Part shown: piece after piece, positions 24,608-25,408 of the stretch
How positions within the stretch are numbered: the stretch's first letter is position 1
How the letters are laid out: every line of letters begins with the position of its first letter
NCBI RefSeq assembly: GCF_016907795.1
Contig: NZ_JAFBCR010000001.1
Location: 2,356,001 to 2,420,000 of the forward strand
Length of the DNA stretch: 64,000 bases
Origin: Kocuria palustris
GTDB lineage: Bacteria; Actinomycetota; Actinomycetes; Actinomycetales; Micrococcaceae
Reading direction: 5' to 3'
The notes under the pieces: model-generated
Told to the model about the DNA's origin: nothing
Databases searched by the model: none
Seen by the model: only the letters and a program-made list of their open reading frames with translations
Program-made: the position numbers and the translations under genes

Positions 24608-25408
24608 ATGAACTCGCAGATTTCCCTGCAGACCAGTCCGTTCACCGCCGTAGGCGACCTTCCTCTGCATCCGCTCGTGGTGCATCTTCCGGTCGTGGTG
24701 CTGCCGCTGACGGCCATCCTGCTGATCGTCGCGGCGGTGGTGCCAGCCGTGCGCCGACGCGTCCTGGGCCTGTCCGTGATCGGCGCCGCGCTCGGGCTGG
24801 CCGGGGTCATCCTGGCCCTGATCTCCGGCGACGCCTTCGCCCAGCAGGTCGGCATGCCGCAGCAGCACGCCGACGCCGCGAACCGCCTGCTCGCGGCCTC
24901 GATCGCGCTGTTCGTGCTGACGACGGCCTGGTGGATCAGCCGGGTCCTCGCCGACCGGAAGCAACGCGCCGAGGTCGAGGGCTCGGGCGCAGGTGCGCTG
25001 CCGACGGTCCTGGGCGCGCTGAGCGCTCTGACGGGCGCGGCCGTGCTGATCTTCGCCGTGCAGACCGGTCACACGGGCGCCCAGGCCGCGTGGTCAGGGG
25101 CCATGGCCACGAACGACCCTGGGGGCACCAGCGCCGAGGAGTCGTCCTCGGCCGCCACCGAGTCCGAGGCTGAGACCTACACGATGGATGAGGTTGCCGA
25201 GCACGACGGCGCCGAGTCCTGCTGGGCCGCGATCGACGGCGGCGTCTACGACCTCAGCGACTGGATCGCCCAGCATCCCGGGGGTGAGGGCGCGATCGAG
25301 TCGCTGTGCGGGAGCGACGGCACCGAGGCCTTCACCGGCCAGCACGAGGGCAGCGATCGGGTGGCCGAGCAGCTCGCGGAGTTCAGGATCGGCGAGCTCG
25401 CCGCCTGA
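24608..25408 (+). CDS. DUF2231 membrane protein fused to a cytochrome b5-like haem domain
   Basis: A 266-residue probable membrane redox protein. Residues 18-155 match DUF2231, with the motif LPLHPLVVHLPVVVLPL and four membrane helices (about 25-47, 55-75, 92-113, 133-153). After an acidic Ser/Thr linker, residues 190-262 form a cytochrome b5-like domain with the haem motif H223-P-G-G and a second histidine H246 in FTGQHEG. The b5 domain has two cysteines, C205 and C234. The membrane part retains H21, H26, H87 and H155, which could bind more haem (inference). The start is leaderless behind TACCGT. Confidence 0.85.
   Translation: MNSQISLQTSPFTAVGDLPLHPLVVHLPVVVLPLTAILLIVAAVVPAVRRRVLGLSVIGAALGLAGVILALISGDAFAQQVGMPQQHADAANRLLAASIALFVLTTAWWISRVLADRKQRAEVEGSGAGALPTVLGALSALTGAAVLIFAVQTGHTGAQAAWSGAMATNDPGGTSAEESSSAATESEAETYTMDEVAEHDGAESCWAAIDGGVYDLSDWIAQHPGGEGAIESLCGSDGTEAFTGQHEGSDRVAEQLAEFRIGELAA

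Follow-up and report, generated by a model that had tools for sequence, protein, structure and literature searches.

A gene of Kocuria palustris joins a DUF2231 membrane domain to a cytochrome b5 domain, and the same pairing occurs across many actinobacteria. The gene, which lies in a 64,000-nucleotide stretch of genomic DNA (the window), most likely encodes an outside-facing, membrane-anchored b-type cytochrome, and the recurrence of the pairing suggests a function in electron transfer at the cell surface. The best explanation of the data as a whole is that of an extracytoplasmic anchored b-type cytochrome in which DUF2231 exchanges electrons with the b5 haem, and we give this explanation an even chance of being correct. 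DUF2231 is a Pfam family without an assigned function, and its fusions to two carriers together with its VIT1, ferric-reductase and flavinylation neighbours make electron exchange a testable hypothesis. If true, surface electron transfer would have an unusual design here, with a b5 tethered on the outside of a Gram-positive cell and in some cases two or three of them in succession; should DUF2231 be an anchor only, what is left is an exported b5 that is anchored in an odd way. Literature searched by title returned nothing on this fusion protein, and DUF2231 or PF09990 is named by only two papers of the literature searched (PMC12828279 and PMC3879021 came up).

Architecture and orientation of the fusion protein

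The first-pass annotation of this DNA had proposed the fusion and had placed within it H21, H26, H87, H155, an HPGG motif (H223) and H246. The fusion is real, with both domains above the Pfam cut-offs in one 266-aa open reading frame, and the residues are at the positions claimed. The cytochrome b5 match (PF00173) covers the whole profile, 1-74, at E 4.2e-21 with 75.2 bits against a cut-off of 23.7, and the DUF2231 match (PF09990) covers residues 18-168 at E 8.3e-8 with 32.8 bits against a cut-off of 26.4. The gene and its parts are as follows:

24608..25408, + strand: DUF2231-cytochrome b5 fusion gene, ATG start, 266 aa, stop included
24659..25111, + strand: DUF2231 domain (PF09990), residues 18-168, four predicted transmembrane helices
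24668..24685, + strand: HPLVVH motif, H21 to H26, at the outer end of helix 1, in 80/80 fusions
24866..24868, + strand: H87, first turn of helix 3, in 80/80 fusions and outside the search motifs
25070..25072, + strand: H155 of the GHTGA motif, at the outer end of helix 4, in 76/80 fusions
25112..25180, + strand: flexible linker rich in S/A/E/T, residues 169-191, block pLDDT 53-71, length varying among relatives
25181..25402, + strand: cytochrome b5 domain, residues 192-265, from PF00173 and the model compared with rat b5
25220..25222, + strand: C205, likely disulfide partner of C234, in 80/80 fusions, aligned with a Cys of 1cxy
25274..25285, + strand: HPGG motif, H223 being the predicted first haem ligand, H223 in 80/80 fusions
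25307..25309, + strand: C234, likely disulfide partner of C205, in 80/80 fusions, aligned with a Cys of 1cxy
25343..25345, + strand: H246, predicted second haem ligand, in 80/80 fusions

The Kocuria protein is like DUF2231 (PF09990) in having an HP motif in helix 1 and a histidine in helix 3; what sets it apart is its C-terminal b5 domain. The AlphaFold2 model (pLDDT 88.4, pTM 0.73) consists of four helices, predicted at residues 20-44, 46-81, 85-121 and 131-168, followed by a low-confidence linker and a b5-like part, and the transmembrane part modelled alone reaches a pLDDT of 90.8. Across the 80 fusions analysed below, the mean number of Lys plus Arg over Asp plus Glu per protein is 0.1/1.3 in the N-terminus, 2.8/0.2 in loop 1, 1.3/3.0 in loop 2, 3.5/1.2 in loop 3 and 1.0/3.3 in the C-terminal linker. 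With Arg and Lys in loops 1 and 3 and acids in loop 2 and the linker, the positive-inside rule places both termini outside. The b5 domain is therefore probably located outside the cell, a topology that is read from these charges and with which neighbouring b5 genes with a lipobox-like or signal-peptide-like start agree. Together with the helix ends, this topology would bring H21, H26, H87 and H155 near the outer membrane face, on the side of the b5 domain. H21 and H26 had previously been described as helix-located, which holds in the model, where they lie in the first turns of helix 1, with the refinement that all four DUF2231 histidines would be near the outer face and not mid-membrane.

The b5 part of the model superimposes on rat b5 (4hil_B) with Z 14.8 and rmsd 1.1 over 78 aligned residues. 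The best sequence match in the PDB is cytochrome b558 of Ectothiorhodospira vacuolata (1cxy), a prokaryotic b5, at E 1.3e-12, or 2.1e-17 with a profile; its fold matches the model with Z 14.0, rmsd 1.3 and 38% identity, and the 1cxy entry is a stand-alone domain without a DUF2231 anchor. Cysteines occupy the positions of C205 and C234 in 1cxy, where we take them to form a disulfide, whereas two other aligned b5 chains lack them. C205 and C234 are both invariant among the fusions and likely form an extracytoplasmic disulfide. Given the profile match, the fold and the two ligand histidines, we infer that the b5 domain holds a single haem, ligated by two histidines, on the outer side of the membrane.

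A fold search with the whole model is filled by b5 structures and by designed or soluble helical bundles, and a search with the transmembrane part yields just generic four-helix bundles and cytochrome c oxidase subunit III (COX3). With nothing but such bundles and COX3 helices in the list, the fold search was dropped as a functional clue for the transmembrane part. Neither list brings a haem membrane protein to the fore, which does not count against one.

Spread of the fusion and conservation of its residues

A scan of 84,980 species, with one genome per species, yielded 274 relatives, the best 80 of which were taken. Read out, these 80 are fusions, and the named loci come from actinobacteria. 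Hosts among the best 80 include Kocuria, Agrococcus, Micropruina, Propioniciclava, Tessaracoccus and Arsenicicoccus as well as Schaalia, Nanchangia, Kineosporia and many actinobacterial MAGs; a few other MAG labels (Fonsibacter, Bifidobacterium breve) probably reflect misbinning or mislabelling. Thus, the possibility that the fusion is confined to this strain, which had been named as a test of the original proposal, is refuted. In the 2.9 Mb genome of the window, the fusion matches only itself at E 1e-3. Within the genus, 6/27 genomes have the fusion (G000, G001, G004, G007, G018, G026), 4/27 have DUF2231 without b5 (G006, G011, G016, G022) and 17/27 have no match at all at E 1e-3; none of the 27 has both the fusion and a stand-alone DUF2231. 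Profile searches found matches with both domains in 7/396 genomes of the order (G000, G299, G383, G091, G107, G149, G216) and in 16/394 genomes of the class, and a plasmid search returned nothing beyond one weak b5-only match. Stand-alone subfamily-A DUF2231 proteins occur without any fused carrier. A quick tree of the membrane domain (116 rows) groups fusions and stand-alone forms in clusters; it needs five label changes, but its starred branches force only one, so that one fusion origin and several origins are both compatible with it. At one locus (L008 in G062, minus strand) the fusion is decayed, with an in-frame TAG in helix 2 and the frame lost before b5.

The alignment comprises P0001 and 79 loci, i.e. 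80 fusions, and reaches down to 28% identity to the query. Invariant residues are L18, P19, H21, L23, H26, G74, H87, G154, G157 and W162 in the DUF2231 part and C205, Y214, H223, P224, G226, C234, F242 and H246 in the b5 part. At position 75, 59 of the fusions have E and 4 have D. At position 155, the 80 fusions have H in 76, E in 2 and D in 2, while 35 stand-alone relatives of the same subfamily, all of which contain the H21-H26 motif, have H in 14, D in 17 and E in 4. The counts for H21, H26 and H155 are partly ascertained because the loci were found via motifs containing H21/H26 or H155: among the 79 loci, 30 match both motifs, 37 match only the first (H21/H26) and 12 only the second. H87, C205, C234, H223 and H246 lie outside the search motifs, and H155 is kept in 63/67 loci matching the H21/H26 motif.

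This conservation bears on the explanation that DUF2231 is a mere membrane anchor for an exported b5, with the histidines serving folding or an unrelated activity of the parent family. We regard this explanation as unlikely. It would fit with the generic bundles obtained in the fold search, with the export of b5 in forms without DUF2231 (lipoprotein-like or with a signal peptide) and with a gene context that is not conserved between genera; however, an anchor would needlessly have kept H21, H26 and H87 in 80/80 proteins at this level of divergence, and DUF2231 is also fused to Rieske domains and near FRE/ApbE in some genomes.

The same residues could mean that DUF2231 binds a haem b of its own, with H21 or H26 of helix 1 and H87 of helix 3 as ligands, giving a two-haem protein. 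This special case of electron exchange between DUF2231 and b5 seems to us quite improbable. The invariant histidines of helices 1 and 3, close to the same face of the membrane, the fusions to b5 and Rieske domains and the higher frequency of H155 in fusions than in stand-alone relatives (14/35) agree with it, but D or E at position 155 in 21/35 stand-alone relatives argues against that position as a general ligand. The first-pass annotation had taken the fusion as a clue that DUF2231 itself handles electrons or haem. This is borne out in part: the fusion is indeed informative when set beside b5, Rieske, VIT1 and FRE/ApbE, while a part for H155 as an axial haem ligand is argued against by the acidic relatives. 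The exchange of H, D and E at this position appears to fit a metal or proton site better than a haem ligand.

Gene neighbourhoods and Rieske fusions

In the window, the neighbours of the fusion, an AI-2E-type transporter and SbcC/SbcD, look unrelated. Operon partners of the fusion were sought by clustering the open reading frames of the 80 loci and the window and this approach was rejected, as neighbours are conserved within genera only; among them are ackA/pta-like genes in Agrococcus and SbcC-like genes in Kocuria. Response regulators neighbour the fusion at 9 loci.

A gene for the iron transporter VIT1 (PF01988) is no more than 200 bp away from a subfamily-A DUF2231 gene in 4/80 genomes of a first set (G057, G099, G222, G431), against approximately 0.05 pairs expected; in the same set there is a partial VIT1 piece in G136 and a VIT1 gene within 3 kb in G175 and G066. 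In a second set of 80 genomes from other orders, VIT1 is near DUF2231 in G561 (183 bp) and G725 (588 bp), i.e. in two genomes of one family against approximately 0.10 expected, and in 0/14 fusion genomes, several of which are fragmented assemblies. The expected numbers are approximate, since they were computed from hand-compiled per-genome counts and rounded genome sizes, with mean gene counts used in the second set, and because the VIT1 idea came from the loci of the first set, only the second set is a separate test, and a weak one. Among the fusion loci, VIT1 is near in 3/80 (L072, L074, L100), directly downstream of the fusion in L074 and L100. Subfamily-A DUF2231 stands beside VIT1 in L224 (4704-6108), L222, L221 (3930-5231), L223 (3979-5304) and L228, in several of them together with ferric-reductase/ApbE genes and two-component systems, an arrangement for which no description was found in the literature searched.

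Four loci with stand-alone genes combine DUF2231 with ferric-reductase and flavinylation genes: L228 has Ferric_reduct, FMN_bind, ApbE, a two-component system, VIT1 and a peroxidase (Pfam), presumably KatG-like; L229 has Ferric_reduct, ApbE and a two-component system, together with a reading frame that contains an SGATYTS motif; L224 has VIT1, Ferric_reduct and ApbE, together with a short frame whose DNA shows a flavinylation-like motif; and L222 has Ferric_reduct, ApbE and VIT1. ApbE lies 1.4 to 6.4 kb from DUF2231 in these loci (4/80 genomes), distances that were taken post hoc. Peroxidase genes adjoin subfamily-A DUF2231 in L228 (2800-5193, by Pfam) and in L148 (2-1084, by resemblance only).

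These four loci place stand-alone relatives in or beside MsrQ/FRE-like flavinylated clusters of the kind described in the eLife 2021 flavinylation survey (PMC8238504). That survey counts VIT1 in 153 MsrQ-like clusters, for which iron reduction was proposed, and ties VIT1 to flavinylation clusters of both the MsrQ-like and the PepSY-like kind; the name DUF2231 is absent from its main text. Such clusters, which serve extracytosolic electron transfer, encode a ferric-reductase-like protein and ApbE along with FMN_bind and sometimes VIT1, whereas the genome of the window has no match to Ferric_reduct and none to ApbE at E<=1e-8, and the Kocuria fusion has a predicted b5 haem in place of the covalent FMN of these clusters. 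VIT1 is 165 kb from the fusion in this genome. With these absences, the distant VIT1 and the unrelated-looking neighbours, the iron and flavin links stem from relatives and not from this locus.

The VIT1 neighbours raise the possibility that DUF2231 is a redox module for iron or another metal at the outer face, in which the b5 haem would reduce or oxidise a DUF2231-bound metal, with VIT1-type transport where present. Also a special case of electron exchange with b5, this version appears rather unlikely to us. VIT1 adjacency above expectation, the connection of VIT1 to MsrQ-like and PepSY-like clusters drawn in PMC8238504 and the set of His and acidic residues with H/D/E exchange at position 155 are in its favor; nevertheless, the adjacency is limited to few lineages (2/80 in the second set), it concerns only three fusion loci, one of them with VIT1 on the opposite strand, and VIT1 is remote from the fusion in the genome of the window.

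A second carrier is fused to DUF2231 in other proteins. Using a profile built from two DUF2231-Rieske fusions and requiring matches that span both parts, we found DUF2231-Rieske fusions in 39/396 genomes of the order by a single match and, additionally, in G091 in two pieces of one frame. Two DUF2231 subfamilies can be told apart, the b5-fused one with LPxHPxxVH...GHSGA..W and the Rieske-fused one with GHPxHP. A direct profile comparison between them aligned only the HP motif, at a probability of 4%, and was rejected as insignificant; the link between the two subfamilies is thus provided by Pfam alone. For this reason, the GGHL-type histidine in helix 4 of 18/20 Rieske fusions (L201-L220) is not to be equated with H155. 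Where the Rieske fusions have GGHL, GGKL is found in GHPxHP proteins that stand alone, for example L031-L036. The charges of the Rieske fusions are ambiguous by eye with respect to orientation, and in L226 an exported-looking Rieske protein adjoins DUF2231.

Proposed electron exchange and multiplied b5 domains

Genome context and the fusions to two unrelated one-electron carriers support, without proving, that DUF2231 participates in electron exchange. Starting from what was computed, namely the fusion and how widely it occurs, its invariant residues, the joining of DUF2231 to both Rieske and b5 domains and the VIT1 neighbours, we suggest the following scheme for the preferred reading: (i) the b5 domain on its flexible tether would carry a bis-His haem outside the membrane, (ii) the four-helix DUF2231 module would gather its conserved histidines, and in most relatives also acidic residues, at the outer face beside b5, (iii) DUF2231 would most likely be the site of electron entry or exit, by way of a metal ion, a quinol or haem, exchanging electrons with the b5 haem, and (iv) the outcome would be redox chemistry at the outer face, linked to iron in relatives. 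Points against this scheme are the subfamily-A proteins that stand alone with no carrier attached, the scarcity of VIT1 neighbours in the second genome set, the missing Ferric_reduct and ApbE matches, the distant VIT1 and the unrelated-looking neighbours in the genome of the window, the restriction of shared fusion neighbours to single genera and the generic outcome of the fold search. A more far-reaching version, which we consider speculative and probably not correct in full, holds that subfamily-A DUF2231 is a new outer-face electron-exchange module (H21, H26, H87 and H/D/E155, with quinol, haem or metal) that in Actinobacteria is either coupled to flavinylated FRE/FMN_bind/ApbE chains or fused to one to three b5 haems, the Kocuria protein being a self-contained, haem-based alternative for iron-linked extracellular redox.

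In nine of the 80 fusions a single chain contains two or three b5 domains, which is what one would look for in an electron relay. In 6/80 loci (L072, L079, L084, L093, L098, L121) a second b5 motif is found outside the fusion frame. In L072 (Arsenicicoccus piscis), a b5 gene lies 16 bp upstream of the fusion and its product has, by eye, a lipobox-like N-terminus. In L189, L191 and L192, a gene for a b5 protein of ~120 residues with a signal-peptide-like start, again by eye, directly adjoins the fusion gene, and in L190 a b5 with such a start, judged in the same way, is encoded downstream of the fusion. The exported-looking sibling b5 proteins and the multi-b5 chains suggest an exported type of b5 that frequently occurs in more than one copy, which would suit an electron carrier.

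One DUF2231 protein (L094, 4989-6353) comprises three b5 domains on a single chain that ends in an acidic tail, and acidic tails similar to this one are present in L110, L116, L123, L131, L132 and L134. In reduced genomes of 1.3-1.5 Mb (L193-L197, family f44), an exported b5 protein is encoded whose first ~150 residues form an N-terminal part without assignment.
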